A model generated the notes under the pieces. It worked only from the letters and a program-made list of their open reading frames with translations. It was not told where the DNA came from and searched no databases. The position numbers and the translations under genes are program-made. 64,000 nt of DNA from Panopea generosa (lineage: Eukaryota; Mollusca; Bivalvia; Adapedonta; Hiatellidae): positions 50,744,250 to 50,808,249 of the forward strand of contig CM055895.1 in assembly GCA_029582155.1 (NCBI GenBank), in the 5' to 3' direction. Of this stretch, positions 31,801 to 61,000 are shown one piece after another (positions within the stretch are counted from its first letter, which is position 1; each line of letters begins with the position of its first letter).

Positions 31801-34800
31801 AGTAAATGATATTAATGACATGTGTTTCTAGTTTATATGGACAATGCTGTCACTTATAATTTACCTTAATTTGTTGTGTCATTATAAATACATTACAATG
31901 CATAATGACAATGAAATAAATCATTGGAAATCAATGAAAATATACACCACACACATACAGTGAGCACATTGATAAATAATATTTTCATTTCTTATTAAGG
32001 CAAAACATATTTTTATCCACTGTGAACAATATCACATGCATACACGCAGTACATTATTCTAAAACAGACAATTTGTTTATCAATATTACACTCTGGACTT
32101 TCAGTACAGAATGGAACAAAACATCCCATAATGATTCATAAACAAGTATTTGCCTCCTGATTTTGTGGGAGCGAGGATGATAGTATTTTCTAAACAGCTG
32201 GTTAAAATCAAAAACACACCTTAGACATGTAGCACAATCAAACACACCTTAGACTTGTAGCACAATCAAACATACCTTAGACATGAAGCACAATCAAACA
32301 CACCTTCGACATGTAGCACAATCAAACACACCTTAGACGTGTAGCACAATCAAACACCTTACACGTGTAGCACAATCAAACACACCTTACACATGTAGCA
32401 CAATCAAACACACCTTAGACATACATGTATAGCACAATCAAACACACTTAAGACATGTAGCACAATCAAACACACCTTAGACATGTAGCACAATCAAACA
32501 CACCTTAGACATACATGTATAGCACAATCAAACACACCTTAGACATGTAGCACAATCAAACACACCTTAGACATGTAGCACAATCAAACACACCTTAGAC
32601 ATACATGTATAGCACAATCAAACACACCTTAGACATGTAGCACAATCAAACACACCTTAGACATGTAGCACAATCAAGCACACCATAGACATGTAGCACA
32701 ATAAAACACACCTGAGACATGTAGCACAATCAAACACACCTTAGACGTGTAGCACAATCAAACACACCTTAGACATGTAGCACAATCAAACACGCCTCCT
32801 TAGACATGTAGCACAATCAAACACACCTTAGACATGTAGCACAATCAAATACACATGAGACATGTAGCACAATCAAACACACCTCCTTATGTAGCACTAA
32901 TCAAACACACTTAAGACATGTAGCACAATCAAACAAACCTCCTTAAACTTGTAGCACAATTAAACACACCTGAGACATGTAGCACAATCAAACACACCTC
33001 CTTAGACATGTAGCACAATCAAACACACCTTAGACATATAGCACAATAAAACACACCTGAGACATGTAGCACAATCAAACACACCTCCTTATGTAGCACA
33101 ATCAAACACACCTTAGACATGCAGCACAACCAAACACACTTAAGACATGTAGTACAATCAAACACACCTTAGATATGTAGTCGGTATCTGTTTTCTCCAT
33201 GAGGGCCTCAGCTGGTTTGTTTTCATACACTTTATATGCTTCCAAATAACGACCTGCTTCTTCAGGTCTGCAAAAAAAAAAATAAAAAAAGACACTGGAG
33301 TATTGCAAGCAATATATAAGTCCCCTATCAGTTTACTGGTAAGACTTTATTACTTTTTTACCAATTTTGTTGCCATAGCATCCATAATTTTTGTCAAACT
33401 TAAAAAATAAATGACCTGCATTATCTACTTATTGCCCTCTATCCATATGCTTAGTTTCACAAATTTGGCTTTGATCACTTTGTGTGACCACAGGATCCAG
33501 GTTGTATCTGTAATTTTACCAAATTTGTTGCTATTGCACCTACAATTTTGTCCAACTTAAAACATAAATTGACCTGCGTTATCTCCTTATAGCCCTCTAT
33601 CCTCATGCTAAGTTTCACAAATGTAGCTTGGATACTTTTCATTACCGCAGAGTTCAGGTTATATCTGTAATTTTACCAATCTTGTTGCCATAGCAACCAC
33701 ATTTTTGTATGTCTAAAAAAATAAAATTACCTGCATTATCTCCTTTTTTACATGCAAAGGTTTACAAACCTTGTTTGAATATTTTTAGTAATCTTTCCAG
33801 ATGGACACCAAGTAACATATACTGCTCTCTGGTGAAACCAGTAGGGGACTAATAAAGGATACATTTTGATAAAATCAATGATGATAATGATGCCGTTTAT
33901 TATGAAAAAAGATAAAATAATGCAGCAATGATAGTGATGATAATGATGTAGTTGACTGTAAGCTAGTGATGATGTTGATGATGAAAACAACTATAACACT
34001 GATATATGGTGTAGATGATGATTTTGCTATGAACTGCTCTTGAGTCGGCTTCCAGCGTAGTACCAGTGCTGAGAGTTGTTATTTGAGAGGTATCGGGTCT
34101 AGGGGTCAAACCCACAACCTGTGTGTGGTGGCCAACACTCTATCCGCTATATTACTATCCCACCAATATAGAAAATATCAAGACAGTTGTGTGAAAACTG
34201 TGGAAGTTATTCAACCTACATGAGAAACAATATAGTAAAAGTGAAAGGGCAATATAACTGCATGGAATTAAGTCAGCATAAGAAATTTATTGTTAATCGT
34301 CAACAATCCAAGTACCTACGTGAAAGCTAACATCAGTGTGCAGTCAGCCAGAATGCAAATCTTAGCAAGGTCCTTCAGAAGGTGGTGGGGGTCTTTCTGT
34401 AACAAACATATAACATAATATAATTTACATAATAATATAAATCTTTATTAGAAATATTCTATCAATACCTGTTTTTAATGAAACTTTCATTATACATTAT
34501 ATTGAGAGTTTGATTTTATTTAAAGGCAGTATTTCATGAAAAAATTGTATAAAAGTCCTAATAATTAAATTTATTATTTTATTAAATACAAAGCATCTCA
34601 TTATCATAAAAAAAAATAAAATCTGAATAGTTTGGCATATCAAATCCACAAAAAACATGACAAAATCAATATTTTAATCGGAGTGGTAAACTTGAAATGC
34701 AGTCCTCATTTTAAAACTAGACAGCACTTAAATACTGCTTGACGATCTTCACATCATCATTTGCACTCTTTCCAAGATTATATAAATTTTACAACATGTA

Positions 34801-37800
34801 AACCAGGAGGAGAGACCAAATGGAAATCACAATAAAATCACTCATTTGATATGTCACAAAACATGTTGCAATTTCAGGCATGTAATCAATTTTGCTATTC
34901 AGTTTTATTTGTTGTGGAAGACATTAGATACATTTTGCTATCCAGTTTTATTTGTTGTAGAACACATTAGATACATTTTGTTATCCAGTTTTATTTGTTG
35001 TGGAAGACATTAGATACATTTTGCTATCCTGTTTTATTTGTTGTGGAAGACATTAGATACATTTTGCTATCCAGTTTTATTTGTTGTGGAAGACATTAGA
35101 TATATTCTGCTATCCAGTTTTATTTGTTGTAGAAGACATTAGATACATTTTGCTATCCTGTTTTATTTGTTGTCGAAGACATTAGATACATTTTGCTATC
35201 CAGTTTTATTTGTTGTGGAAGACATTAGATACATTTTGCTATCCAGTTTTATTTGTTGTAGAAGACATTAGATACGTTTTGCTATCCAGTTTTATTTGTT
35301 GTGGAAGACATTAGATACATTTTGCTATCCTGTTTTATTTGTTGTAGAAGACATAAGATACATTTTGCTATCCAGTTTTATTTTGTTATGGAAGACATTA
35401 GATACATTTTGCTATCCAGTTTTATTTGTTGTAGAAGACATTAGATACGTTTACATGAATCTGAGTAGAAGCATCATCTTTCTACAAAAAACTTTCTCAC
35501 ATAAAGTGTTTTTTTAAAACAAGTTGGGCTTGAACCAATGACCTTGGCAGTGAGGGGCAAGTGACCCTCAGATGTGACCTTACACTTCTCAGTGATTGAG
35601 GACCACTTCAAGAATACATGAACATAGATCAAGGTTGCTGACCCTCGTCCTACTGACCAGTAGAGTGTAAAGTGTAAGTGCTAAAAGCAGAATTGTTTTA
35701 TATTTACCACATCTACCTGTACGAGGAGTACCCTGAGGTCATAACCTTTGCCAAGTTCCTTCAACCTATTGTGGAGGTAGGTGGGGTTAAGCTGGTGATA
35801 CCGCAAACTGTCACATGTAAAGCAAATAAAAATTATGCAGATGTATGACTTGTGAGTTATATCACAAACGTTCACTACGAGCCATCATTGACTCATTTAC
35901 AAGAAATATTAATGTAATTCTGGATATATGATTTATCAATACATGTATATTCAAATGATAAGCTCAATTGCTCTTGTTCCAACTTCCTTTATGTTTCCTT
36001 ATATCATAATTAGAGCATTTTGCCTATATTCTTTTAAGTAGTTATTCTGCAGCTTGTAACAAAGTGAACATGACACAGATATTGTAAGAGTCTAAGTTTA
36101 ATTACAAGTCCAGTATATTAACTTACCACAAGTTACATAGCCTAACCTAATTTCATCTAGCTTAACAAAAATCACATCTAAGCAATTTTTAATCTAGCCT
36201 CCCTTTTCCATTCCTTATAGAGCAGTTCCTGACAGTGCTGACCATTTGTTTACTAGCGAGTCATGACCAGCGTGATCTAGAAAACCTTGTCAATCCCCCA
36301 TCCTTATTATTACTAATATGAGCATGTTACTTTATTAAGCTCACGAGATGGTCATACATAACAGGTAATCTTTGATCAACATTTATTGTATGGGTGATCT
36401 ACTTCTAATGTGACACTGACATACTAGTATATCGTTTAGACCAAAATGTGGCATGTTATAAAAACATATTTGTCATTTCCTGCAGCATACACTCTTAATT
36501 AGCTTCTGTACCAACCCACATGTCCCATGTCATGTAAAGAACTGTTGTAAACATTTTAAGAACTGCTACAAAACTCCTCATTTCATATCGAACTCATTCT
36601 AATCCATCAAATCTCAGCTTTAATTAAATTGCATTACACCTAAATCTCAGCTCTAATTAAATTGCATTACATGCTATCGTAAAATCCATATCACTAATTC
36701 CTAAAAACTAACCCTAACTTCCAGAAATAAAAGACATAGTAGAGTCTATGGTATTGCCAGCTTTCATACATTTTTTATGAAATTGAAGAAATATTGGAAA
36801 TTTGCTATAATTCCTTAATGTCAGTTAAACTTGTAAAAGCAGAAATGAAATATTACATTTTATATACCAACGTGATTTTAAGGAATAAGGAAAACACCGA
36901 CCAAATTAGTTAAATTATAAAACATGAATCTGGTCAATATTGATTAAAATTCAAGTACGACAGAATTTTACATAGGATATTTTCATGTCAGCTTGAGCCT
37001 TGACAAAAAGAATACCAAAAGAAGTATCTATCATTTTGTTCTTTATTATTTGATTTATCAATGACCGTCATTAATAAAAAAAATTACAACACAGCACAGC
37101 CTCTCAAACAAATGGTTTATTCTGGTTATACGACACTCTATCTTTTACATGTACATGATTGTATATCTGAACACAGTAGGGCTGTATTCAGTTTGGTTAA
37201 AACTTTAATGTGTTAACTATTGCTTCTTAACACAAATGAATGTGTTTACTGTAAAAGTCCGCTAATATAAGCAAGCACTTTTTAGAGCAGTTTGCTTTGT
37301 GTTTAATCACGTGACTTAAAGAGAAAAGGAGGGACAGCACTGATTTAGTCCAATTTTTATTTATTGTCTATTCAGTTTAGAAACATTAATGTTTATTAAC
37401 ACATTAAACATGTTTAACCGAGCTGACTGCAGCCCAGTGGTAGTACATGAGTATCAGAGGGCTTTTTTTACTTTATTAAATAGAGGCCGACATTTGATGG
37501 CTACCCAATTAAAAAATCATGTTTTTCCTAGTTAGGGTATGTAAAAACAAACAAAAAAAACAACTGAATGTGAAGTATTATTATATTATCTGATAACTAT
37601 AGGTTAACACATGACCTTAACAGTGTTAAGCTTTATTTTCCAGTTTGCTTAAGCCTTAAAATTTTGTTCGAATCTCCCCTCAATCACACTGTTTTTTTTC
37701 TCCCGATCTCAAAAAAAGACTCTGAGGACTGTCCACCATTAGACACCAACATATATCCTTTGAGTTTTTTTGCAATTCTATTTAAAATCCAGATGGCTAA

Positions 37801-40800
37801 TAAAACTATTAATCACACCAATTGTCTGTTGAATATTTAGTGTCATTTTATGCTATTGAGGGTTAACAGATAATCAGTTAACCTAACCGTTCTTTCCTTA
37901 GACTGATTGTAGCCAGACAGGGTTGATATTCAGACGTGCTTCTGACATGCTTGCCAGACCAGGCAATAATAACCCAGCAAGTGGCTTGTTAAGCACAAAT
38001 ACAATAAACTACTATACCTAATTTACTGTTTAACTATTTACTTCATATAGATGCCTTCGGACACCTCTAATATAGACGCCTTTGGACAACTAAATATGGA
38101 GGCTTTTGAATGATTGGGTGAATTATGTTTATATTAACTGACAGAGTGGAAAACAGTGCAGGAAGTGTTCAGATTTCTCGTTACGAGCAATCTGAACTCT
38201 TCCTGCACAGTTTTCAAAGGCCTTCTGTGATTGGTATCTATAGAGTAAAGGGTTAACATACTATATTTAAATGGGGTTTCATGCCATTTTAAACACATCA
38301 CAGATAATAATTATGTTGTATCCTGTTTTATCATTGGAGAAAGACCTAAGATTGAAACAGAGTAGAATGTCTGGCAAATTAACCTCGCATAAATTGTTGG
38401 GTTGGCCTCAATGTCTTTGACCACTCAGCCACAGAGGAGTCAATACCCTCATGGTAAGGTTTATCTTCGTGGTCAATACCCTCATGGTAAGGTTTATCTT
38501 CGTGGTCAATACCCTCATGGTAAGGTTTATCTTCGTGGTCAATACCCTCATGGTAAGGTTTATCTTCGTGGTCAATACCCTCATGGTAAGGTTTATCTTC
38601 AACTCCAAGGTCAGGAATTAAAACTAGGGTTATGGACCAAATTATTATTGCAAGAAGCATGACACAGATGTTATTCACACAACTTCTGCAATAAATCCAC
38701 CTTGTATTCATTATTTGTGCAATTATACAGTAAATACCTGAGAAATAGAGCACAGTTTGCCTTGCCCAAAACATAGTCTGGCACAATATTCCCATATTCC
38801 CAGGGTATATTTCTGATGTGCTTCAAAATTGGATTTCCTCTCTGAAAAAAATCAAGGTCAAAACTATCAGTCGGCTACATATATCAAATATTCATTAAAA
38901 GGGGAACAGGCATAGAGGATACTGTTGTCTCTCACACCTGAGGTTTGAAGTTTGATCCAAGGCTCATCATGATGGCATATCTTAAACAGCACCCTGTACT
39001 AGCTCTACCAAGGAAATGATTTATTTGTTTGAATGTATAGCATCATTTTTATACCATCAAGGGCTAACAGATGATCAGTTATCTAACCACTCTTTCCTTA
39101 GATACTGGAAGGTTAACCAGTACTTGAGCACTCTCATGTGTGGAAGTTACTGATATTTTTTCTTGAGCACTGGAAAGAGTTTTTAGGTTATCTGATTGTC
39201 TGTAAGCCTGATGGCATAAAAATGACGCTATATATTCAATCAATTAAACCACCTCCCATGAACAAATAAATGATAAATTATAATACTCAAACCTGATAAA
39301 ATTGGTGCTTTTAAGTTTGAACTCACAAATAAAATCCCCAGTTATTACTATGATGACTTTTTCAGCCACTGACTTTTCCCTTACCTGTCTATAGTTGACT
39401 ACTATACTATTGGTTGAGGCAGCTTTTGTTGCTGGGGCTGGACCTGTCCTGCAATGATCATGATAATCATACAACTTTTTTTTATTGCTAGTATTAACAT
39501 TATGCTTTAATTTATATGAGGATAGATTATTGACTTTTAATTTATGGTATGATCAATCAGTAATAGTGTTGGGAATCAAAGCTAAAATTATAAACTGACT
39601 AACCAGAAATTTATGAATTTCAGTAAACGTTTAAAATCGTCATTAATTTATAATATGTTTTCTATATATATTGAGCCTAAATAGTCCCAAGAGTCTCATT
39701 TATTATTTGTCCTTAAAAAGGGAAAGTCATTCGTCTTCGTATTTATCAGTCATGTTGGTAAATTGGCCTAATTAAGTCTGATTAGCTACCTGACTTGGTT
39801 TTCATCAAAATAGTGTTCAATTTATTCATAAAGAAGAACGACAACTCTTACACATTTAGTATAATTCATCAACAAATAAAAACCATCATCGAGGATCATA
39901 ACGGCGACTTGGTAACAATTTGGCGATTAATTAATTAATTGTAACAACACTAATTAACAACATTGCAGTACAGTTGGTAACAGTTTTTAAACTGTCACAT
40001 GTTTATAAAAAGATCTGATTTTCCAATGCAGAAAAAATGACATGTGGAGCAAAAGAAACAATTACATTTTCCAACCAGGGGACTCGTTACACATTATTTA
40101 CAAATCCAAGAATCTTAATAAAAATTAAAATCAATAGACTCATTAGATATGTCATATGTATCACTGTATGTGGCACAGTTACATTAATAACTTTTATTTA
40201 GCATTCCGAAAGTTTTATTGTAAGATATATATGTGTGCATTATTTTCCTTTAATTACAAACTCAAATTGTTATTTAACAACAGAACAAATTCCACAAATT
40301 CTTTCCTTTTTTACTTCATAGCCAGATTAACAAAACAATACTTCTTCCTTGTAATTCACATTTATATAATATTTGTATAATCATTATCATACTCAATTTA
40401 AGTGAGGTGGTAGCTTAGTGGATAGAGTTACATGTTCCCTGTCCTGGCTCAATCTGATGCTTCTTAAAGTAACAGCACTCAGAACTGGTCTTACCAAGGA
40501 AACGGAATCCAGAGCAGTTCATATAAGCTCTGAGCTTTTAACATGATTAAGCTAAAATAAATAGTATAAACCAACATACTCATTGTTCACTGCTGACCCT
40601 GTTGCTCTAGCATCTGAACTTGTTGCAGTTGATGATGATGATTTCTCTACTACTGCTGCTGCTGAACATGATGCTGATACTGTACTAGTTGACCCTTTTA
40701 CGGCATGTCCTGTTATAGGTGCTTTTGTTGCACCAGAGGCTGATGATGATGGTGCAACCAATGAAGATAATGATGAATTTGTTGATGATGGCTTGACTGC

Positions 40801-42506: not shown

Positions 42507-42702
42507 TTCTTTTATCATTTACTAAATATTGTTCAATAAAACATGTACTGTATTTTTACAACATTTCGAACATTATAATTGCTAAAGAAAGGAATGGAAA
42601 TAACAAAGGTTGTCGAACACCAAACTGAGTCACACTAAATGCTTTAAAATCTGAAAATAAAAGTAAACCAAACGTTTGTACGATAAGTTTGGTCACGTGA
42701 CT
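42507..42702. promoter_or_regulatory. Divergent ERCC1/PRKDC promoter region
   Basis: Only 196 bp lie between the two start codons, so both 5' UTRs and the core promoters must fit here unless there are upstream non-coding exons. No TATA box is placed clearly for either gene. Visible motifs are an AP-1-type TGAGTCA at 42626-42632, a palindromic E-box GTCACGTGAC at 42692-42701 just before the PRKDC ATG, and ATGGCGGC overlapping that ATG, which resembles a YY1 initiator element. Confidence 0.75.
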
Positions 42703-42844
42703 ATGGCGGCAAGTTTGCTGGAGGAGAATCTACGAAGTTTACATGCCATTTTAGCAGGAAATGCCTCGCAGAAAGAGCAAGCCGTCGGAATCGTATCTGA
42801 TCTGACACAAATATGTGTTCAGGAAATAACTGACAAAGAAATTG
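42703..42844 (+). CDS. PRKDC: PRKDC coding exon 1
   Basis: Starts MAASLLEENLRSLHAILAGN. The ATG is chosen because it lies in an ATGGCGGC context right after the E-box; the frame is open upstream but without another ATG. Donor GTACGT, phase 1. Confidence 0.85.
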
Positions 42845-45800
42845 GTACGTGCCATCAACAATATATTTGCAAATTTAGTGGTTGAATTTCAGTAAAATTA
42901 TGCCGGAATCATCAGTTTTTTGTGGTTACTGGATTGTTGATGCCATGTAGACAGACTGGGCTGGACTCTAAATAGATATTATGTAACTGAACAAGACTCG
43001 GTGTGGTGGTGGCACAGAATGTCTGAAATGTTAAAATTTTAAAACTGTTTAGAGTGTCGTGTCGGGTGAAGAAGTAACTGCAAGGTTTGCTGCAGACACT
43101 GTGATGACTGGGAGAAGATTCCATTGTCACACTGTCCTTGGGAAGAAATGTGCCAGTACCTAGTCTGTTATACGCTTCTGGAACAGTCTGTGTAGTCCTC
43201 TAGTATGAGTTGTTGGAGGAATCTCAACATTGATGTCTATGTATGCCGTTTTACTATTTAACCACAATAAGGGATATCACTTATTTAAATAGGTGATATC
43301 ACTGGGTGCAGGACGAAGCGTACCACTGTCTTTCCGTACCACTGCCTTTACGTACCATTTCAGGACGAAGCGCACCACATATATATAATATAGTAGTAAA
43401 TACCTGGTGGGACGCTCAATAATACGTTGTCAACTAGGTGTGAATAACAAGTATCATTTGCTCAAATCAGTGGTAAATTAAAGCAATTTGACAAAAAGAA
43501 AGTAGTAATGGGTATTATCAGGTTAATTAATCCCGATTAATTGTAAAAGCAGTACAATATAGTAATTGTAAGTTTGGTTATAAAGAACGAGAAAACATAG
43601 ATCACTTTCTTTTTTATATAAGCATTTTATTTTTTTCGCATAATAACGTATAAAATAAGCACAAACATACATTTTTTTCTTCATTCATTCATAATAAAAA
43701 TCATAACTCATCGATCAGTATAAGCACATTTCATATAAAGCATATAATTATAATTAATAGCCAAACATACATTTTTTTCTTCATTCACTATTAAAATTTC
43801 AAAATTTACAACAATTTCATATATCATAATAAAAATCATAACTCGTCGATCAGTATAAGCACACTTTACATTTATTGAAGCTGTGACACAGTGTCTGTGA
43901 TGTCAGCGGCAATTGTGTCTGTTGATGCTGATCTACATTCTCCGCAAGACCATTCCAGATTGATCTGCCCCCTCTGCAACTGATGATACTGAGCATGTGT
44001 GATCCCTGCAATAAAAATATGAATAAATAATTAACACATAGATACTAGATATATTCAAAATTTAATTTATTATAATTCTCGCTTTATTTTCGCTATATTG
44101 TAGTACTTATCGATGCAAATTAGACAAGATGAACATTAGATAAAAAAAAAATATAACATAATACACATTTGAACAGTTTAACAAACAATACATTAATATT
44201 ATTAAATTTTCCCTATATAATCTATATGTGGTACGCTTCGTCCTAGAAACTGGTACACTTCGTCCTGATACGGTAAGGCAGTGGTACGCTTCGTCCGACA
44301 ATCATATCACTTATTCAATTTATCAAGAAAGAAAAAACAGAATGGTCCTTGCTGATATGATAAAAATGATTCAGCAGATATATGATAAAAATGGTTCAGA
44401 TGCCAAAATGAATTGTTTGATAAAATTATTAAAGAATAAACCAATATATGTATATTCTACATTCAGAATAATGTTTATTTTATAATAAGTTATTTTACAA
44501 TATTTTTTACACAATATATTTAATATTCCCATTTTATTCTCAGTATATATGCATATGATATATTTAATCTTTGGGAGAAATCAATGTTGACGTTCCTATC
44601 AAATAGGTGATATCAATAGGTGAAATCACCTATTGGAATAAGTGATATATCACTAATTCATTGCAAATAAGTGATATCATATATTCATTATAAATTATAA
44701 AAAATCATTATAAATAATAGTTAATATTTTAGAATTATATTTGCTTTCTTTAATTAAACACTCCATGCATTTGTTACAATAGGAGATCCAGTGAAAGTTA
44801 ACAAATCAGATTTTAAAATTGGGAGCAGTACAAAAGATGCATTATGACATGAACATTGTTTTAATGTGGGAACTAAATGGAAAAGTCAAAACCAACTTCC
44901 ATTATAATCATACCTATTGAGTTATGGTCCAGCCAACTTTAATACTTGCAGCATTTCATGTGGCTTATTTTGAATATTATTTTGTGTATGTAAACAACTC
45001 TCAAGATATCCCCATTAAAAGTGAGAAACTTCTTTAATTAATGTTGTCAATTGATAGGGGGTTTTCTACTAGTTAATGTTCTTGTTTATCAAGAAACACA
45101 ACTACAACTGGGGATAAGTGATCGAATGTCAGTTTTGCATGTGGAAAGTTGTGGTTTAATTCCCAACCGTGTACCATGTATCTGCGGCATGATATATCAG
45201 TGTGGCAGCACTTTGAATATTGTATCAAGTTGACACTTGTGATATGACTGAAAAATTGTTAAGCGATGCTGCACACAATGCAACAATTCACCAACAACAA
45301 CATTAAAAAAATAATTAAAAGGCAATTTAAAATAAATATTTCTTTTTCTATTTTAGATTTGACTTGTTCTTCTTTGTTTGACAAAGATTACGGCCTGACA
45401 GTCTTTCTCAGCAAAGCCATCACAAATGATGAGGTAAGAAATTTTCATGACAATTATTTACAGGTAGATGAGATTACAAAGTATCTTTCATCAGTTTGAA
45501 GTGTGGATGGAAAATTCCTACCAGAGGGATAAATGTTTTAGCAGTAACAAGGCTCTATCATAATGCGAGGAATTTGTCATAGCACAATGATTTAATGAAT
45601 CGTGTTATGTATTCTTCATCTTGACTGACAAGAACAGTTATTTAGCATGACTGAAATGACTTATTTGAATAGTTTTTGGTGAGATTTGTTGTTGATGACA
45701 GTGACGGTTAATATCCATGTTTTATTTAATGCCCCCACCCTTCTCTGGCCTTGGGGATGGGGCCAAAAAAGAGTCAGATTCAAGGTAAATTTTGAAATGG

Positions 45801-48800
45801 TAAGCATGATTATTGAGGCCTATGGGTTCTTTATAAATATTGTGAATTGTATGCCCCTGGGTGTTAGCATTTTGCCCTGGGGGCAGAGCCTACTTTACTG
45901 AAATCTGTTTAAAAAAAACTGATAAATAATAGTTTATACTAATATATATGAATTGCTCTCTGACCCGTTTCCAGGCTAGAACCAATATGAGTGAGGCTGA
46001 GCGTGATATCTTACTAAGGACATGTGGTAGTGAGCGGCCAACACTCATGAAAAAAGATAATACATGCATATTTCTGAGAATTTAAATATCGTCTCATATT
46101 AGTAGGTAAATTCAGTATGCAGAAATTACAAATGTTTTGATATTTCAGTTGCAATTGTGTAAGTCGAAAGTGCTGGAGTTCCTGTCCGAGTTTATTGACA
46201 AAGTTGGGCAAAGGATTCTTCCCTATGCAGTGGATGTCAAGGTAAATTTGCAGCATAAATTATTCATTGCTTCAGATTAGCTTTTCTTCAAAAGGATTCT
46301 TCCCTATGCAGTGGATGTCAAGGTAAATTTGCAGCTTAAATTATTCATTGCTTCAGATTAGCTTTTCTTCAAAAGGGTTCTTCCCTATGCAGTGGATGTC
46401 AAGGTAAATTTGGAGCATAAGTTATTCATTGCTTCAGATTAGCTTTTCTTCAAAAGGATTCTTCCCTATGCAGTGAATGTCGAGGTAAATTTGCAGCATA
46501 AATTATTCATTGCTTCAGATTAGCTTTTCTTCAAAAGGATTCTTCCCTATGCAGTGGATGTCAAGGTAAATTTGTAGCATAAATTATTCATTGCTTCATA
46601 TTAGCTTTTCTTCAGAAGGATTCTTCCCTATGCAGTGAATGTCGAGGTAAATTTGCAGCATGAATTATTCATTGCTTCAGATTAGCTTTTCTTCAAAAGG
46701 ATTCTTCCCTATGCAGTGGATGTCGAGGTAAATTTGTAACATAAATTATTCATTGCTTCAGATTGACTTTTCTTCAGAAGGATTCTTCCCTATGCAGTGG
46801 ATGTCAAGGTAAATTTGTAGCATAAATTATTCATTGCTTCAGATTAGCTTTTCTTCAAAAGGATTCTTCCCAATGCAGTGGATGTCAAGGTAAATTTGGA
46901 GCTTAAATTATTCATAGCTTCAGATTAGCTTTTCTTCAAATGAGTACACTCGGGAACCGTGTTGTAAACATCGCGGCTGTAAAAGTTCCACAAGTGGAAT
47001 AACCTTATGGAAACATCTTTCTTTCAGTATACATGTATAGTGAAACTTACCGTGAAATGATCCCTTACTTTGTTTCTTTTCTGTAATTATATTTTTCTAT
47101 TGTATATACCAATAATTTGGAAAAACTACATTTGTTTTGAAACAAAGACATTCTGTATCGGCTATCTTTACGCTGTTTATATCATGTGATGTACATGCGA
47201 TTCTACCTAGTCAGCCACCTAGCGAGAAGTATAAAGGTAGCTCCCGATTTAAATTCATCCGTACTAGATTTCCTGTAAATTGTAAATAATATTGTCTTTG
47301 CCAAAAACATGGCATTCCATGTGTGATAAATAAACAGACATTGTTTGTCAGCCTAAATCAGTTAAAAACCATGTGTATAACCGTAAGTAGTTATTATCAT
47401 GTAGTCTAGATTAATTAGGTGTAGTTGACACACACTTTAGATGAAGTCACAATTGAAAACAACATAACTTCACAACAAAGTTTAGATTTTTCAATCAATT
47501 TATCAATTGTTCTAATGCAATTTTTAGCTCGCCGGGACGAGGTCCAAGGAGAGCTATTATCATGACCCCGGCGTCGTTGTTGTCTGTAGACATCCGGGTT
47601 AAACTTTTGCAAACAAGTTTCAGATATCTATGCAACCAATCATTGGATGTTAATGAAACTTTGCATGTGTGTTCACCATCATCAATGGAACACACAGAGA
47701 CAAGAACCGTAACTCTGGATTGCATTTTGGCACAGTTATGGCCCTTTTTGGACTTAAGACACCCAGAGGCGAGCTTTGTTGTCTTCTGACAGCTCTTGTT
47801 TAATGAAACTGGTTGCAGTTATCAATTTTAAATTTGAAAGCCAAAGAAAAAATGCGTTATAACAAGTTTCATGTTGTATCGGACCGGGTTTATATTGGGA
47901 CCCGAGTGTACTGATAATTTGGTCAAAGATATATTTGAAGCAAAAACATTCCTTGTCCGCCACCTTTAGCATGTTTTGCGTCGTGTGATCAACACTTGAT
48001 TCTACCTTATAAGCCACCTAGGGAGAAGGCTAAATTTAGCTCCTGATTGGCAGCTATGTCTCTGGTAAAGTGTAAACAATTAGGCCAATGGCTATGCGAA
48101 AAACATGACAAGTTTCGTGTAATAAACGAGACCATCGTTTGTTGGTGTAAATCAATTCATATCTATGTTGTGTATAACCATAAGTAGTTGTCATCATGTC
48201 AGTATGGATGGAATTAGGTGTAACTGATGCACAAACTAGTTGAGGTCGCAGTCGGAAAAAACGTTACTTTGCAATTTCAATCAATTCATCCATTGCTATA
48301 ATGCAAGTTTTTCATGAATCTTATTGAAAATATCAGTTTCAAATTTGGGAACCATAGAAATAAAAGAAATATAAGTTTTGCATTGTATTAGACCACGCTA
48401 TATTGAGTGTACGTTATTCCTTCAAAGGGAATATATCAAGATTAAATGAGTCACATATTTTATTTAATTCCAGTTTGATCCGTTATACAGATTTACACAT
48501 AGTAACATTTTTTCCTCTCGGACAGAGTCTGAATGATGATGCAAATGTTGTAAAGCAGTATTAAAGTGCTGATCTATTTTAAGAATTGGGATTTCGTTTC
48601 AAGTTTACCTACTCCGCTTTAAACCTTTTGGTGGATTTCAATAACAAAACAATTCAGATTTTATTTATTAATGATAAAGGAGATGTGTTTCATCCTTTTT
48701 AAAAGTAGTTTTATTTTATAATACAGGAAATAGTGTTTTTTTCATGATATATTCCCTTCAAGTTGTATGCTATTTTTATATTTTCAAAATGTTATGGGTA

Positions 48801-51800
48801 AAAATGAACAGGTACTTGAAATAAATCTATTAACGTTGAATATGTCAGATTTCAATGCTTATTTTACCATTTACTTTAAATTGCAATGCTATATTCAAAT
48901 TTTTAATACTGAAATACTTTAAATATTAAACTGTGAAACAAACTGTAGCATGTTAGTGTAGATGTACGTCATTAAAAGTATACATTATTTGTAATTATAA
49001 GATCTAATTCATATGTATCATGTAATTATAATTATTTATAATTTATATACTGGTTCTTTATATAATGTAATGATAACGTAATTATGGTATTTAAAAAGCC
49101 ATACATAGATTATTATTTCATGTAAAATGATGATGTTTATCACCCTTTGAAATACAAATATATCCTAGAAATTAAATCTTAAGGGAAAACTGTTTTGTAC
49201 GTATAAATAAAATGACAGATTTTTCAGTCAATGGTGTATGTAGGAGGGTGGAGTGGGGGAGGGTGGGTCACATTCCTCTGGTGTATTTAAACTGTGTGAG
49301 GCTGGGGCCTGTCTGTACCACACCAGACATTTTCACAATATGCCAAAGATGTTCCTTTTTAGTTAAAAAGTTGAAAAAAAGTACATCTGATACTCTGTGA
49401 CTGGAAAATAGAATCCGCAGACACCCCTACCAGAAATTCTAAACATTAATAAAAGGTATCCTATTAAGTGAAAATGGTGAAAAACAGGATAGTTTTTCTC
49501 AAAATTTGAGTACCTTGAACTCACACTTACCTCCCCCCCCACCACCACCCTTTCGAAGTGCATGTGTGTTCAAAGTATATAAAGTCTATATTGAGATGTT
49601 TCCATCTTTAGATCCATAGCCATGGTAGCTTTATGGTAGAACATCTGCCTGTAATGCAAGAGGTTTTTGATTTGATACCTGGCCAGATCCTAACCAATAT
49701 ATGTTACTATTGCAAGAAGCAGCTATCTTGCTTGATGTTAGGCATGAAGAAGGTAGTTGTAGTGTCAGCTGAGTCATGGTGCCCATATGATGTGACTGGG
49801 TGGAGTATTATGGAATAGTTAAGCAACATTGTACATCCATGTGTAGTGCTTTGGTTGTATCTCAAGATGGCTCAGTCATAACATGACTGAAAATATGTTA
49901 AATGTTGAAATGTAAAATTTTACTGACTAGAAATGGACCAACTCCTGCTATGATCTGTTGAGCATCAGTATATATGAGCTTGCTGAATGGACAGTGACTT
50001 TAATTAACAGATTGCATAACCAGATGACAATATGGTAAACATGTTTGGTTACCATGAAATAACCTGACTGCATGCTGTCAAACAAATTGATAATCCTATC
50101 AGCAGTTGATATTGGTTGCTGCGCCAACATTTTCCTAAGACAAGCCAATGATAGTTTAAGTAGATACTACATTGTATTTTACTTGGACAAACATTGTCAT
50201 ATGGCCTAGTGGGCGGGCGACAGTCGTTCTTGCGTCAGGTCAATTGTGGGACAGGCATGGAATTATTTTTCATTTGTGTCTAACAGACTTAAGTTGGGAA
50301 ATTTCAGGTTTACTTGGATAGATTAAGAATTGTGTAGCTTCAGATTTAAAACTAGCTGTAGTCATCTTAATGGAAGTTATTTTGACCTACCATTGAACAT
50401 TCATGTTAGTTTTTGGTTTTAGGAAATAACTATATACTGTTTGTATATGATATTTTCAGGACATCTGTGTGTCCTTATTTAGTAGAGACAGATATGCCAA
50501 GGTGAAGAATGCAGCCATGCCAGTACTGTGTAAGGTTAGTAGTTCTTTTAAATAAATGGTCTCATTCAGCAGCATTTTTTCTTACAAAACAAACTTGAAC
50601 ATGGTATGCTGATTGCAATTTTGTCATGAGTTAAAGTAAAGTAACAGGCATTTTGGATTCTGATCATGTGATCTTTTATGATTTCTGGTTTTCTGTTGTC
50701 TTCTGTCCATCTCCATTGTTAACTTATTACAAAATGCCATTTACTCTGATTCTACAAATGATTACTTATATGTGAAGTGGCATGAAATCATGACCCTTTT
50801 GATCCTTGGTCATACTTGATCCTGTCTCGGGAAGTTAAACTTGCATTGAACTTGTGTTAGTTAGAAATGTTGCGGTTCTAGATTTGCAGTAGTCCAAAAT
50901 ACTATGTCAGTTCCAAAATAACTCCATATTATACACTCTATGCATGTTGGACTTGCTAGTACGAAATTCAATAGTTCAAAAAATTTAATTGTAGGAAATG
51001 AGTTTTTGGTTCTTAGTAGGACATTTTCACAGTTTTGCGACTTGATAATATAAAAATTGATTCTGATTGTTGTACCATCAAAAGTAACACAATACACGCA
51101 GATCGGCCCTGTGAAACATGTGTAGTAATCACTGTCAGAACACAAGCTTGCATTAAATGATTTATTACTGCTATGTCACACAGAATGTGTATTTTCAAAA
51201 AGACTGCTTTGATTTTCAGAAAATGGCATTTCACCTTTTCTTCTCTTAGATTCCCACACAAAGTCCAGCACTTAAGATGCTTGATTTGCCTGACCTCTCT
51301 GATCATGTTCGGCCCTATTTGCAGGTTGGATGCTATTTTTATAAAAATTTAGAATAGTAACACTATGATGAAATGTGTTAACTTTATTTTGTGATTTGAA
51401 TTTCTACACCAAAATCAACATCCGGATGCGGAAAATGAATGAAGTGTCCATGTCGGTTAATCAATAGATTCATTGGAATTAAGGGTTAACAATATTGATT
51501 GATTGATTGAATATTTAGTGCATTTTTATGCCATCGAGGGTTAACAGACTGATCAGTTAATCTAACCAATGTTTCCTGGGATTAACCAGTACTCGAGCAC
51601 ACCCCATCTCCACAAGTAACTGATAACTTTCCCACTTGAATCAGCAGTGGGAGATGAATGATAATGAGACACATTGTCGTATATCAATCATCACAGAAGA
51701 CGGTTGCAGAGCGGGGATTCGAGGTCACGACCCCTGGATTGATAGTCAGACGCGTAACCCACTGAGCTAATCTGGCCCGGCTGGGTTAAAAATAAGATAA

Positions 51801-54800
51801 TAACAGGTTGCAGAACACAAATTTTGTACAAGAATATCTCTACAAAACACACATTAAGGATAACAGGTATTTGGTATATCATATATGTATTTGAAGGACA
51901 GATTTCAACAGTGAATATATATATATGTTAGAAAAGCACTATTTCAACAGTAAAATAATGCCAGTTTTGACCCAGAACTCGAATTGAAAATCGCGATGGT
52001 TGGAAATTTTCTTTGTCCCTTAGATTTCGAACCAACGCGATCAATGTAATAGAAAAAAAATCTGAAACTATATGGTCTCCACTTTTACATTTCTAATTAT
52101 AATGAAAGAGGGACTCTAGAAATGTGCTTGAACTGAATTGAATTACAGTTACATGTAAATGGTGTAAACTGAAAACTAAATTTTGTATTATATTTCAGCT
52201 ACTTGAGTTGACAGTTGGATCATCACTTGGTAAAGAACTGCAGGTAGATAAATTGATCACCAAGTTCTTCAACTGAACTGACTAAAACAACCAAACTTAC
52301 ATCAACAGGTACATGTATGATTTGTATTCTTCATTCTGTCAGACTAGCAACTTTGATTTGGTATTCTTCATCCATACTGACAACTTTGGGTTTGTTAGAT
52401 ATTCTATCGTCTGTTAGCCCTCGATGGCATAAAAATGACACTAAATATTCAATCAGTCAATCAATTGAATATTCTTGCATAAAGCAACTTTCAACCATAT
52501 TGACTTTGGGAAAACAGAACCAAGTAGGATTTGTTTTCCATTTCAGGAAAAAAACATTTTCATTTACTGTCTCATTCTTCAGGTTCATGTATACATGTAT
52601 GATACAAAGTAGTTATATCTCTCTTACAGTTAAGGAGAAAATCTACATCTTACTGGGCATCATTGCTGAAGTGTATCCAGAACATATGACTCCGTATGCA
52701 GACAGGCTTACAGGGATTTATCTTGGGGCACTTAAAGCCGAGGTCAGTAGTTAAATTGTAAATTAAAGATTAAGGTGAAAGGGATAAATATACCTAAATC
52801 ACATTCGTTTACCCCTTTACTCAATAGATACGCGTTTTCCCGCACCAATCACTGAAGGCCTTAGAAAACAGTGCAGGAAGAGTTTAGATTGCTCGTAAAC
52901 TTATTCACCCAATAATTCAAAAGCCTTCAATATAAGAAGTGTCCAAAGGCGTCTATATAAGAGGTGTCCAAAGGCGTCAATATGAAGTAAAGGGCTAACA
53001 AAACTTTTGTCACATTGGCTCCAGGGTGGTACCTGTTGGGTTGGTTTTTTTTTGTAACAATAAAAAATCCAATATTCCAAGGCCACAGTTTCTTGGTATA
53101 TGGCATTGTATACAATTGTCATTTGCCTCTCACCACTGATTGAAGTGGGAAAGTTTTCAGTTGCTTGTGCAGATAGGTGTGCTGGAGTACTCATTAACCT
53201 TCCAGGATCCCAGGTAAGAGATAGGTTAACTGATTGTCTGTTAGCCCTCAATGACATAAAAGTAATGCTAAATATTCAAACAAACAAAATGTCACAATGT
53301 GTTTATGATGTTACAATGTTGATTAAATTTTTGTAACAAACAAAAATCCAATATGGGTACTTATACTTTCTTCAAAAGTGTTATTTTTTAGAAAGCATTG
53401 CCATTGTTAATCCATGTTTTCTTCATAACTACATTATTTAAAGTACGAATTTCTTGTTCAGATTGGCAGTAAGACGAGGAAGCCAGAGTTTGCCATTATC
53501 TCTGGTTGTTTAGAGGGACTCAGCTGTAGTCTGGTCAACTTTACTGAGTCTGCAGATGAAGGTACAATTAAAATTTATCACACAAAGTGTATGTTTGGTG
53601 AGAAGAGGTACACTGTACTTGTTTAAACTATAATCAACATTTCTAAATCAAAATACATTATCAAAACTTAAATCATGGAAATTAAACTTCTGAGTACAGA
53701 ATGTAAGAATCTTTCATTAGTTTGAAGTTCTGATAGAAAATTCATTCCAAAAATTCTACGAATGAACCTTAATCTTGCATACCAAACACATTGAATAATT
53801 ACCCTAATTTTAATGGGGTTAACACCATTTTCTGCACATGGCAGGTTACAGATGGCATATCTTTATATGGTGGAGGAAGACTTCAGAATGAATCTTGGTT
53901 GAACCACTGGCCTTTCTCAAGTAATTGGCATACTTTCTCACAAGATGTTTTTGTTTAAGCTGGGCTTGAACCCACAACTTCAAACATCAAAACATAATTT
54001 AATGTATTTTTTATATGTCACGTCATACATATAGTTAAAACATCACAGTATGATAATTTTATCTGGACCCTCAAGCGAAAAAGAAATAACAGACATCCAT
54101 ATCTGGTATACAAGAATATAAGTGAAACCTTGATTTGGACCCTCAGGTGAGATAGAAATATCTCCCATCAATAAAACATCCATATCTGTAAGTAAGACTT
54201 TGGTTAAATCATCTAATACAATTAACATACGGTTTTAGCTCAAGAACTATGATATCCTAGGGTAGAGTTGGTGCAGTGTAAATGTTGTTGGAGCACCTTA
54301 ATAAAAGACACGTACAACAGTGGTATGTATGATGAGGATGTTTACTGCTAGTCATGGTAATGATAAAATAATGACATTTATAAATACATTTATTTCAGGT
54401 TCCAAAAACTCCTATGAGATCTTCAAGTATGCAAGACATGCTATAGACTCTAAGATTGAGTTTACAAGATATGATGTTCCAAGGTCAGGATTGCGTCTGT
54501 TTGCTCGACATGCGTCTCAGTTTGGCCAGTATCTGATTGAGGATTATGAGGTAATTGCACGTAAGAAATCATACAACAATGACACAAGAAAACATGTCAT
54601 ATAAGTAATATTGTCAGAGTTTAGTTATACATGTATCAATTCATTTTGGCCTGATTGTGATAAAAGCTCAGAGCTTATTTGAACTGCTCTTGAGTTTGCT
54701 TCATGGATAGAACCAGTACTGAATGTTGTTTTATGAAAGGCATCGGGTCAAGCAGAGGATCAAACCACAAGATCTGGCATGAGCAGCTAACACTCAATTA

Positions 54801-57800
54801 CACTACCGCCCAGCTTTGTCAGAGTGACATACCTATATGCCACATTAGCAGAGCAGGGCTTTTCATCAGAAAATTGGGAAGAGGCCTTGGCCTTTTCAAA
54901 TTGGGAAATTCACGCGCGATAATTGCCCATTTTGGGAAAAAGGTATCTTATTAAAAGATGGACTGTGTATAGATTTGAACAGTATTTTCAACTAAGTAAT
55001 TTAATATTTTATTTGTCGAACATAAAATGTCACATTTGCAATGTTATTACAGTGCCAAGTCTTTCTGGTTCACATTGAATGGTAGAATCTGTTATAACTT
55101 GAGGAGAGTTCAATTTAACGGGCTATTTCTTCAGTGTTGGATATATTACTGCAGCTTGGGACAGTGTCATTGTCAGTGCCAGTGGCCTTTTCGGATAGCT
55201 GTTGATTGATTTACGATACTTATAGCCTCAAGTTTATGTTTTTTTACACCACACTCAAACAACGTTTTTTGACTTGCCCTTTGAAAGAGACTGACGTTTA
55301 ATGGACTTACTATAATATTTCCCATTGTGTGACATTTTTAATCAGAGAAAATCAAACGGAGGTAAACATCGTAAAAAAAACCAGAATAATTTACCTCCCT
55401 AGTCTAGATAATCAGCGACGCTTGCTTTTCTAAAAGTTTGTCTTTTAGAACTGCAAGTGTCGCCGCAATCTCCTTCGCAGAATTATCGTTTGTTATGAGT
55501 CGAATGTGTTAGAGAGGCGTCGCCGATGATCTAGACTGTTTCCCTTGTGAAAAGCATAGACTAAATCCCAAACCACGGAATATTACGGATTAGACTGGTT
55601 ACATGTAACCCGCATGTATGTTTGCCGTGCTATAGGTGCTTTTAGGCTAATAACGCTATACCAGACCAGCGCTTCCGGCGGAAATGTTGAAATGTAAACA
55701 AAACGTTGAGATTTTAGGAAATCTTAACTGGCTTTTTGGGAATTTTTCTCTGCCACAGTTGGGAAAAAATAATGCATTTTTCAATTGGGTCCAGTTGTGG
55801 AGCATCAAATGCAAATGCTAGTATCAAAGGGTTATTTAGGTTAGGGATTCAAACTCACTACCCCTGAATTGATAGTCGGGTGCGTTAATGCCGGTAAGTA
55901 GAAAGTAACAGTTAAAGTAAATAAATATTCTTTTTCATAATAGTTTGTAATTAACATGTTACAATTAACTTTACAGAATGTGTACAGCAAGATGTCATTC
56001 TGGAGTCATCACAAGAACTCAGAGATGGTACTACTTGGTATGAAGGCCATTGAGGCATTCCTTACTCAGGTATGTTCTGCCATGTGTACATTCCTTACTC
56101 GGGTATCTTCTGCCATGTGTTCATTCCTTACTCGGGTATCTTCTGCCATGTGTTCATTCCTTACTCGGGTATCTTCTGCCATGTGTTCATTCCTTACTCG
56201 GGTATCTTCTGCCATGTGTACATTCCTTACTCAGGTATCTTCTGCCATGTGTACATGTAAATGCAGTAATGCCATCATGATAGATGATATTCTTATATGG
56301 CCTGGACAGGCTTTTTCATGTAATTACAAATAGACATCCTTTCTGGACTACATGTATTAACAAAAGGTGTGAAAATGTGAAACACAGATGTATTCATATT
56401 ACATGCAAGTCTTACAGGGTATTTTATTTGAAAAATACATTGCAGGATCCCTCACTAGACCTTAAGTTGGTAATCTTTAAAAGATTGCAAGTAAAGTGCA
56501 CAAAGTCTGCGATTAAAGAGCACAAATTCTGCATGTAAATGTCCAAAATCTGTAATTAATGTGCACAAGATCTGCAAGTTAAGTGCACAAAATTGTTCCT
56601 GTTAGCCATGTTTTTATTTTTAGGTTTACTGGCCAAAGGCCAGCAGGGCTTATGTCATTGTAAATTGTCTGTCATCCATCTGTTTAACTTTTTCTTGTAG
56701 ACGAGATATCACCTTCATTTTTCATTGAATCTTAACCAAACTTGCACAGCAGTTATATAATCATAATATCTTGGACCAGTTCCTGAAGCCAGCGTCATTC
56801 GACCACAAATGCTTATAAGTACATTTTAAACAAAACTTTAAAAAACATTTTCTCTGAAAGTTCAAGGCCTAGACCTTAGATATTTAACATGTAGCATTGC
56901 ATGGGGGTTCTCTAAAAGATTTATTTAAGTCAGATCCCTTGGGTCAAATTTGGGGTCACCACAGGGGTCACTGTTTTACATAGAGTTATATAGGAAAAAT
57001 GTGGTAGATGCGATAGCACCTTCACTTTTCATTGAATCTTAACCAAATTTCCACAGCAGTTATATAACTACAAGATCCCGTACGAATTCTTTAACCAGCG
57101 TCAGTACTCCAGATAAGCTACGTATTTCACTCAAATAAATTCATGGAAAACGCAATTTTGTTTTTAGGCGTACCCATTACGCAAATAATTTTCCTTTCAC
57201 GCAAAACATTTTTAACACAATGCGTATCCAAACATCTGTGTCACATTTCCTGTATTACTAAATAAAACAGGTAATAGATAAACTGATTCCAGGTTGCTAC
57301 GGTTTGTACCTCACAAGCTATTAGTAGAGTGAAAGTAGAGACGAGTACCAGTTTATTCGATCGTCTCATACATGAGTTGCATATTATTCATAAGTAGTGA
57401 TGAAAGCGGCTAGATGATCAAGATCACACACGGAAATCTCAGCTTGCAGAGGAAAAACATGTTTTAACCAATTCAATGTACAATTTTAAGTTACTTTTTG
57501 CCCCTAACACCAATTTCTTCAATAAGTAGTTTTAAAACTATTATTTGACATTGTCAACAAAGAATTAGACCAGAAATTCTGAGTTCCAAGCAGCTGCATT
57601 TGTGCAAGAAGAAACTAGTTTGTTCAGTTATATTTGATACAATACTGATTATGCAAGTCGAGAGTTGCAGGCAGTCACAATTTAACAATATTGTGCATTT
57701 AATATAGAACAGTTTTATCAAGATAAAGCTTTTGAATTACTTTCATTTAGACAATTCTCCATGTTTCACTCAATTATTGTAAACTTACTAAGTGAAAATC

Positions 57801-58083: not shown

Positions 58084-61000
58084 CATCAATCAATTAACAA
58101 TCAGTTGATCAATCAGTGGATTGCTCTTACATACTTGTATATTACAATGTAAGTGATATGAAATCATTCACTTTAGAACAGAGCTTTTTACCAAATGTAA
58201 TGACTGAGAATTTGATTTTAAGTTAAATTGCAGCATTCTTTATTACAAGATGGCTAAAATTAAAGTAAAAATCACTGTAAAATTTATATCATTTATTATT
58301 GCATTTAACATTTGTTAATACTGTTGTGGTATTGTATAAACTCAAGCATTCATTAAAACTGAATGATAACAATGACTAACATGAACATGAATGTATTATT
58401 AGATAATAGTTGGCAGATATGGTCACAGCTCAGTGACTGGAAAACCCCAGAGAGATCTCAAATACTAGTGGAACCGGCCGCGACTTCATTATATCCATAA
58501 GGTCCATCTCTTATGGTATTAACTAAACAATAACTTCGCTCCAAGACCCCATAGTTCAAACTATGATGGCCATTCGCTCTTCCACTAAGTCCCAAAGTCC
58601 AAACACATGTTGACCTGCAGAAGAGCGCCATAAGGTCCAGCTCTTATGGTATTAAATAACAATAACTACTCTGCAAGACCACATAGTTCAAACTATGATG
58701 GCCATTCGCTCCTCCGCTAAGTCCCAAAGTCCAAACATATGTTGACCTGCGGAAGAGCGCCATAAGGTCCAGCTCTTATGGCATGCATGAAAATTCGCTC
58801 CACGTTAGACCCCAAGGTTCTCACTCATGTTGGTCAGAAAATGCTAGCCAGTTCAAACGTGTTTAGCCGCAACTTAATACGCTCCTCCGCAACAATTGCG
58901 GTCCAGCAGGCGTCGCCTGCATTTTAATGAATAGGTCAGCAGGCAGTTCACCCTAACCTAATTCGAATAGAATAAACTTTTAGTATATTATATGACCTAA
59001 AACGGGAAAACTATGAATGAAAATGAGATCTCCCAGGAATTTTCCGCACTGAGAGGAGCTTTTTTAAGAAAAAGGACAAATATCAATAAAATATATAAGG
59101 TAGATATTGAAGACAGATACATAATAAAACAATGCATTAACTTTAAAATATGTCTATAAGCGTTGCACTCAATGTTTATTTAAAATGAAGAACCGCAGTG
59201 TCCCAGTTACATAGACTTGTCCGGACCTAATGTTACAATGGGTGTATCCAGATTTGACTAAGCCTGCGTAAAACAATGTCTATTTAATATTCAGCTGTGT
59301 TCCCGGCCAGCTGCCGTGAGAGACTTTTGTTGTATTTGGATTCGCAGATTTTACGCATAAGCCTGGTTGCTGAACACGACATGACAAGTGAATTGGGATG
59401 ACTGCGGCCTGCTACAAGATTCCCTGAAATATATATGAATAAGCAGCATCGTGTTCAAGAAAAGATAAAGTTCAAGCTATCAACGTAATAATTAGGCAAA
59501 CTATAGGCCGACATGTAGTTGAATGAATACACAAATTGACTAGTAAATTCACACGTAAATGACAACAATGACTAGAGAGAGTACTGACAAGTAACCAATA
59601 AACTAGACCTTTATTGAAACCATCTCGTAACAATGTAAGGGAGGGTGGGTGGGAAAAATTAACCCTTGAAAATTTTATAAAATTTGTTGCAGATTCGGCG
59701 CGCTGGTAGAAAAGAATGTCAAAACGGTGCGACCATAGAAAGTACCTCGGCTCCTTTATCCTGTCCGCCTCATTATAAGAGAGAAACAGCTAATTTTATT
59801 GCTGTAATAAATTGGTCTATTTTTTAACAATAGCCCTTATTATTACAAGATGGCTAAAATTAAAGTAAAAATCACTGTAAAATTTATATCATTTATTATT
59901 GCATTTAACATTTGTTAATACTGTTGTGGTATTGTATAAACTCAAGCATTCATTAAAACTGAATGATAACAATGACTAACATGAACATGAATGTATTATT
60001 AGATAATAGTTGGCAGATATGGTCACAGCTCAGTGACGGAAAACCCCAGAGAGATCTCAAATACTAGTGGAACCGGCCGCGACTTCATTATATCCATAAG
60101 GTCCATCTCTTATGGTATTAACTAAACAATAACTTCGCTCCAAGACCCCATAGTTCAAACTATGATGGCCATTCGCTCTTCCACTAAGTCCCAAAGTCCA
60201 AACACATGTTGACCTGCAGAAGAGCGCCATAAGGTCCAGCTCTTATGGTATTAAATAACAATAACTACGCTGCAAGACCACATAGTTCAAACTATGATGG
60301 CCATTCGCTCCTCCGCTAAGTCCCAAAGTCCAAACATATGTTGACCTGTGGAAGAGCGCCATAAGGTCCAGCTCTTATGGCATGCATGAAAATTCGCTCC
60401 ACGTTAGACCCCAAGGTTCTCACTCATGTTGGTCAGAAAATGCTAGCCAGTTCAAACGTGTTTAGCCGCAACTTAATACGCTCCTCCGCAACAATTGCGG
60501 TCCAGCAGGCGTCGCCTGCATTTTAATGAATAGGTCAGCAGCCAGTTCACCCTAATCTTATTCGAATAGAATAAACTTTTAGAATATTATATGACCTAAA
60601 ACTGGAAAACTATGAATGAAAATGAGATCTCCCAGGAATTTTCCGCCACACGAACATTTGTTTCGCCCCAAAATTCCGGAATTTGGCTATGGCTTGAATA
60701 ACAGTGCCAACGCATCCCGAATGCCCATCATAATTAAATCGCTACCAATATCTGAAAGGTGTACACCATCCGAAAAATAAAAGCCTGGAGTGTCAGCTGT
60801 AATGTCGGGATGCGCAATGAACATACCCCCCAAAAAATGACTGAGAATTTGAATTGCAGCATTCTTTATTTTATTTTAGATATCAGAAATGCTGAAAGAG
60901 AAAGCAAAAGAAGGCAAGCAGCAGGGTGGTAGTATATTCAAGGTAGTACTTTTTTTAAATTCCTAAAAATTTTCTTACATTGAAACATTACAACATTTTA

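Follow-up and report, generated by a model that had tools for sequence, protein, structure and literature searches.

Why should three different minisatellites, with units of 28, 81 and 33 bp, each lie across a donor (the 5' splice site of an intron) in two adjacent DNA-repair genes? The question is raised by a window of 64 000 nucleotides from the bivalve Panopea generosa (contig CM055895.1; G000:C2:50744250-50808249 in our coordinates), in which ERCC1 on the minus strand and PRKDC, coding for DNA-PKcs, on the plus strand stand head to head. The genome searched comprises 1.474 Gb in 39 contigs. A preliminary description of this DNA had proposed that the genome repeatedly duplicates AG/GT junctions and that chance was an improbable explanation. 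The arrays, here called A1 (ERCC1 exon 8), A2 (PRKDC exon 3) and A3 (PRKDC exon 10), are probably ordinary minisatellites formed in situ, of the type known in lancelets as 'mirages', and a tolerated side effect of a repeat-rich genome.

Tandem Repeats Finder (TRF) and exon placement confirm the three arrays, their unit lengths and their association with donors. They do not start exactly at the donor boundary, as had been stated: the arrays span it, beginning 13 (A1), 32 (A2) and 14 (A3) bases inside the exon, and each includes the native donor. The A2 unit is accordingly made of 32 exon and 49 intron bases, and the A3 unit of 14 exon and 19 intron bases. All the remaining copies are intronic. 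With the native copy included, AG/GT is present in nine of nine A2 copies, where AAG or GAG always precedes GTAAAT, and in two of six A3 copies, the other four having GG/GT; an AG/GT-like core is found in 27 of the 34 A1 units.

In each array, the exon-side copy is the junction whose use yields conserved protein. The identity of ERCC1 is established by the Pfam family Rad10 (E 1.2e-22) and by solved ERCC-1 chains (best 2.6e-47), and that of PRKDC by the Pfam family DNA-PKcs_N (1.2e-120) and solved DNA-PKcs chains (best 2.8e-76). Alignments to the solved ERCC1 and DNA-PKcs chains are free of gaps across all three array-bearing native junctions; use of the exon-side donor thus yields conserved protein, which leaves little visible to selection. 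There are 14 PRKDC and nine ERCC1 exons placed in the window, together 3.7% of its length, compared with the coding share of about 4 per cent estimated previously. The C-terminal exons of ERCC1 beyond 31436 (1-31435, minus strand) were not found by keyword. The donor of ERCC1 exon 6, GATGTG/GTAAAT, fits both protein and alignment and is without a junction copy. The head-to-head starts of the two genes, with 196 bases between the ATG codons, suggest a shared bidirectional promoter.

Table 1. Arrays, array-bearing exons and other features. Positions are those of the window unless a contig is given.
Feature	Position	Strand	Description
Array A1, ERCC1 exon 8 donor	32212-33180	-	28-bp unit, 33.8 copies (TRF)
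Array A2, PRKDC exon 3 donor	46210-46940	+	81-bp unit, 9.0 copies (TRF)
Array A3, PRKDC exon 10 donor	56056-56256	+	33-bp unit, 6.1 copies (TRF)
ERCC1 exon 8 (of nine found; ends ...TDTDYISK)	33168..33267	-	native donor TCTAAG/GTGTGT after 33168, phase 0
PRKDC exon 3 (ends ...ILPYAVDVK)	46149..46241	+	native donor GTCAAG/GTAAAT after 46241, phase 0
PRKDC exon 10 (ends ...IEAFLTQ)	55977..56069	+	native donor ACTCAG/GTATGT after 56069, phase 0
Interval between the ATG codons of ERCC1 and PRKDC	42507-42702		head-to-head gene starts
Array beyond the placed ERCC1 exons	23461-27615		37-bp unit, 113 copies, 4.2 kb
Array in ERCC1 intron	38439-38600		perfect 33-bp array, 4.9 copies, 100%
Element in PRKDC intron 1	43311-44296		about 1 kb, 31-base inverted ends, 90% complementary, GGACGAAGCGTACCAC...
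Direct repeats in PRKDC intron 10	58240-58738 and 59840-60337		99-100% identical, 1.6 kb apart
Large array on another contig	G000:C1:56270630-56293929		spacing about 58 bp, three matches listed read TTACAGGTAAGT

Genome searches with units of the arrays led back to the arrays themselves. Three A1 units gave 12 listed matches, all 12 at the A1 locus; one A2 unit gave nine of nine at the A2 locus, with 93-100% identity to the query; two A3 units gave five of five at the A3 locus. Each unit is matched solely at its own locus, and the arrays were therefore born in place; a mobile-repeat origin was rejected on the same ground. Dispersed copies of the A1-A3 units are unlikely, although the search skips very common words. 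Tandem arrays are generally prone to assembly error, and the arrays might in principle be an artefact of this kind, or a mobile minisatellite that landed beside exons. This explanation is barely credible: the copies differ from one another, as the range of identity in A2 illustrates, several genes have such arrays, with units that differ between them, and the units contain exon bases and are matched only at their own locus.

How surprising is it that three donors of one window are affected? Merging 39 TRF rows by hand gives 27 arrays, rather than the dozen or so previously counted, and these occupy 14 171 bases, or 22.1% of the window. There is an intron-side copy of the junction at three of the 23 donors and at none of the 23 exon starts (21 acceptors, the 3' splice sites, and two ATG starts). 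Our yardstick is the probability for a noncoding point to fall in an array's edge (founder) copy: 2.4-2.7% over the window and 2.5-2.8% over the gene span. At an edge-copy rate of 2.68%, the three donors have a nominal p of 0.023, computed once they had been noticed; they are unremarkable (p 0.56) when compared with the share of gene-span positions in any copy (12.5%). With so many arrays on more than a fifth of the window, and a nominal probability obtained post hoc, the earlier argument against chance is weak.

A sample from elsewhere in the genome was compared with background. It consists of 79 loci with a mean length of 3.4 kb, representing the best 30 of 136 protein kinase, all 19 ABC transporter and the best 30 of 81 myosin head loci, ranked by family score with repeats ignored. 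Added to these are 11 SNF2 donor stretches, each 441 bases long, chosen among 57 for their short open frames; one of them (L090), without a callable donor, was dropped. Splice sites called by eye from the family matches number 43 donors and 34 acceptors among the 79 loci, the rest being dropped as intronless or unclear. Further exons were picked with a codon model without looking at repeats (77 sense against 6 antisense predictions). Deduplication of the two sets leaves 95 donors and 85 acceptors, and the 10 SNF2 donors bring the donors to 105. These calls supersede earlier automatic ones (3/51 donors and 2/55 acceptors spanned); the by-eye list was not blind, as five automatic-call matches were already known when it was made. 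For a junction to be scored as spanned, a second copy of the 30 bases around it (15 exonic and 15 intronic), with 24 identities or more, had to lie on its intron side at a distance of 12-400 bases.

Arrays span 6 of the 105 donors (5.7%) and 3 of the 85 acceptors, together 9/190 or about 5%. The recurrence of such arrays in other genes, at donors as well as acceptors, is thus a direct observation. The donors are those of one ABC transporter (L051) and five myosins (L060, L065, L083, L068 and L086), and the acceptors are those of three myosins (L070, L082 and L087); none is found among the 10 SNF2 donors or the kinase junctions sampled. By coordinates, the spanned junctions fall in seven gene loci, two of which have one array at a donor and another at an acceptor. 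TRF reports an array across 5/95 donors and 3/85 acceptors of the family loci, missing L060, a weak two-copy case. Since myosin genes dominate the sample, the value of about 5% is only a rough guide to the rate in the genome.

The null expectation was derived from 127 100 noncoding positions in 68 loci, 11 loci being omitted because they overlap others or are near-copies of them. Tandem copies hold 12.1% of these positions (bootstrap 8-16%), which indicates that array birth is common, and the edge copy on a given side holds 2.1% (1.5-2.8%). Donors fall inside arrays at a lower rate (5.7%) than random noncoding positions do (12.1%); so low a number has a p of 0.024 against 12.1% and of 0.26 at the lower bound of 8%.

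Two observations weigh against ordinary arrays that are merely tolerated. The sampled donor rate of 5.7% exceeds the 2.1-2.6% predicted by random birth. Furthermore, donors as strong as the native one are present among the copies in A2, L051, L065, L083, L068 and L086, and exclusive use of the native site is therefore not guaranteed. The scores on which this rests come from a weight matrix and are rough: A2 copies score as high as the native donor; two A1 copies could be followed before indels, one with a donor equal to the native one and the other weak; the five non-native A3 copies are weaker (CGG/GTATCT in four and CAG/GTATCT in the last; 0.7-2.0 against 6.0 for the native donor).

The first of these observations would be accounted for if junctions, donors above all, were mutational hot spots for tandem duplication, through R-loops where introns start, AG/GT microhomology or transcription-linked repair. 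The result for the window donors is in line with this, as is the p of 0.024 for 6/105 donors against the founder-unit null of 2.1%, and the profile around the 95 donors peaks at the junction, with about 5% against 1-3% deeper in the intron. The excess nevertheless depends on the null chosen: p is 0.055 with the 2.6% measured in ABC and myosin loci and 0.072 with the upper bound. Over seven detection settings, 4-6/95 donors are spanned (p 0.016-0.14), and 1-3/85 acceptors (p 0.27-0.81). Pseudo-donors in noncoding DNA are spanned in 5/233 cases, a proportion not clearly different from that of donors (Fisher p 0.10), and acceptors, being spanned too, do not differ significantly from donors (Fisher p 0.73). 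Microhomology gave no clear signal: among 50 exact tandem duplications, 37 have fewer than three full copies and only eight, several of them simple repeats, are without a third approximate copy. Hot spots of this kind are consequently unlikely as the explanation.

A process specific to donors, tried as a candidate, is weakened by the acceptor arrays and by this dependence on the null, and one specific to donors or to AGGT is unsupported, as acceptors are also spanned. The comparison with background thus upholds the recurrence of junction duplication proposed in the preliminary description, without its donor or AGGT specificity; the excess of donors, about two- to threefold, is not robust (p 0.024-0.072). 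Junctions are not spared by arrays, and a two- to threefold increase over random birth may exist, although the sample does not establish it. Genome-wide counts of donor-word pairs (29 against 12 for the reversed control, and 1349 against 501) lie in the direction previously expected and are not used as evidence; the listed part of the latter count is dominated by one large array, and the counts cover word pairs only.

There is also a pattern in intron phase. All nine donor arrays (three in the window, six in the sample) are at phase 0, against 62/109 other donors, the 10 SNF2 donors being left out (Fisher p 0.011, post hoc). For the sample arrays only, p is 0.078, and two of the three acceptor arrays are at phase 0. 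That junctions, donors most, are true hot spots in this lineage at about three times background, perhaps linked to phase, appears doubtful. If they were, redundant splice sites would commonly and repeatedly arise from mirages, which would then not be random events.

The second observation raises the question of whether the extra donors are useful. Alternative donors might tune ERCC1 and DNA-PKcs, the stops in A1 and A2 directing mis-spliced RNA to decay and A3 adding repeats of 11 residues to DNA-PKcs. Read-through of the native donor encounters a stop in frame before the second donor in A2 and after it in A1, and is in frame and stop-free along the whole of A3. The donors of equal strength in A2 and the open frame of A3 would fit such a role, and the human CBS minisatellite is tied to reduced CBS activity, according to a title cited in PMC2630376. 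The unit length is, however, a multiple of three in only two of the nine donor arrays, which gives no sign of selection for frame, the A3 copies have weak donors, and similar structures occur in unrelated genes. A regulatory role is thus very improbable.

Alternatively, the arrays might mark the beginning of intron gain. For this process tandem duplication is an established model (PMC3443670), and a potato gene acquired an intron when a duplication crossed an intron-exon boundary (PMC4974935). Here, the duplications lengthen existing introns; no new intron was observed, and the protein continues uninterrupted across the native junctions. In the myosin L068, the array is present, whereas the matching introns of the related loci L072, L074 and L075, with homologous exon ends, are without it. 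This explanation has hardly any likelihood.

We therefore favour ordinary minisatellites formed in place. The founding event would be a short tandem duplication that by chance included the last bases of an exon and the first of the following intron, succeeded by growth through slippage or unequal exchange, as presumed for arrays throughout the genome. Tolerance would be explained by the survival of the native junction, which keeps its place at the exon edge and its surroundings, the extra copies being all intronic. As judged from the DNA, splicing would normally use the native junction, and the copies would be near-neutral decoys.

Several other repeats were noticed. The element in PRKDC intron 1 is probably a DNA transposon remnant, and the direct repeats of PRKDC intron 10 are candidates for a recent duplication or for the ends of an element. 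The GGTAAGG of the perfect array in the ERCC1 intron is on the strand opposite to the gene, and this is therefore not a donor array. The sequence of the three matches listed for the large array on the other contig, TTACAGGTAAGT, places an acceptor and a donor back to back and resembles a recursive splice site. The array of 113 copies lies beyond the exons placed for ERCC1.

The present data add one more animal genome to those with mirages and give a first, approximate frequency, about 5% of the junctions sampled; no report of mirages in molluscs was found among the titles and abstract beginnings listed, which cover the literature in part. If about one junction in 20 carries a mirage, then one annotated genome with RNA reads would contain numerous natural experiments on spliceosomal choice between adjacent identical donors, as well as a reserve of sequences from which new introns might start, and mirages would be no peculiarity of lancelets.

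Among known systems, the tandem genomic duplication model of intron gain shares with these arrays a short duplication carrying AG/GT signals (PMC3443670, PMC4974935); it differs in that introns grow here, with no new intron shown. Human genes in segmental duplications contain minisatellites with a mean unit of 30 bp, some at exon-intron boundaries; those repeats were defined by copy-number differences between paralogues and are supported by RNA, some of them forming novel introns (PMC2812944). The human CBS 31-bp variable number tandem repeat, c.1444_1467+7(16_21), has 16-21 copies, and its unit, by its name, consists of 24 coding and 7 intron bases and so spans a donor as ours do; it is polymorphic in humans, and the cited title claims that it affects enzyme activity (PMC2630376).

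The closest parallel is with the lancelet mirages, described in Adh3, the globins BflGb6 and BflGb9, troponin C and PGBD5, with units of 10-160 bp of which many, not all, copies have AG/GT signals (PMC3087553, PMC3902484). According to the same papers, reverse transcription PCR and results on Adh3 are said to point to undisturbed splicing, haplotypes differ in array length, the arrays are somatically unstable, and a model of intron gain was derived from them. Those reports on splicing and length variation are lancelet data, whereas ours come from a different animal genome, one assembly and DNA alone. The resemblance in structure is close: in A1-A3 the unit spans the exon-intron boundary, many copies carry AG/GT signals (an AG/GT-like core in A1), and 5' and 3' boundaries are both affected in the genome sample, with donors alone affected in the window.

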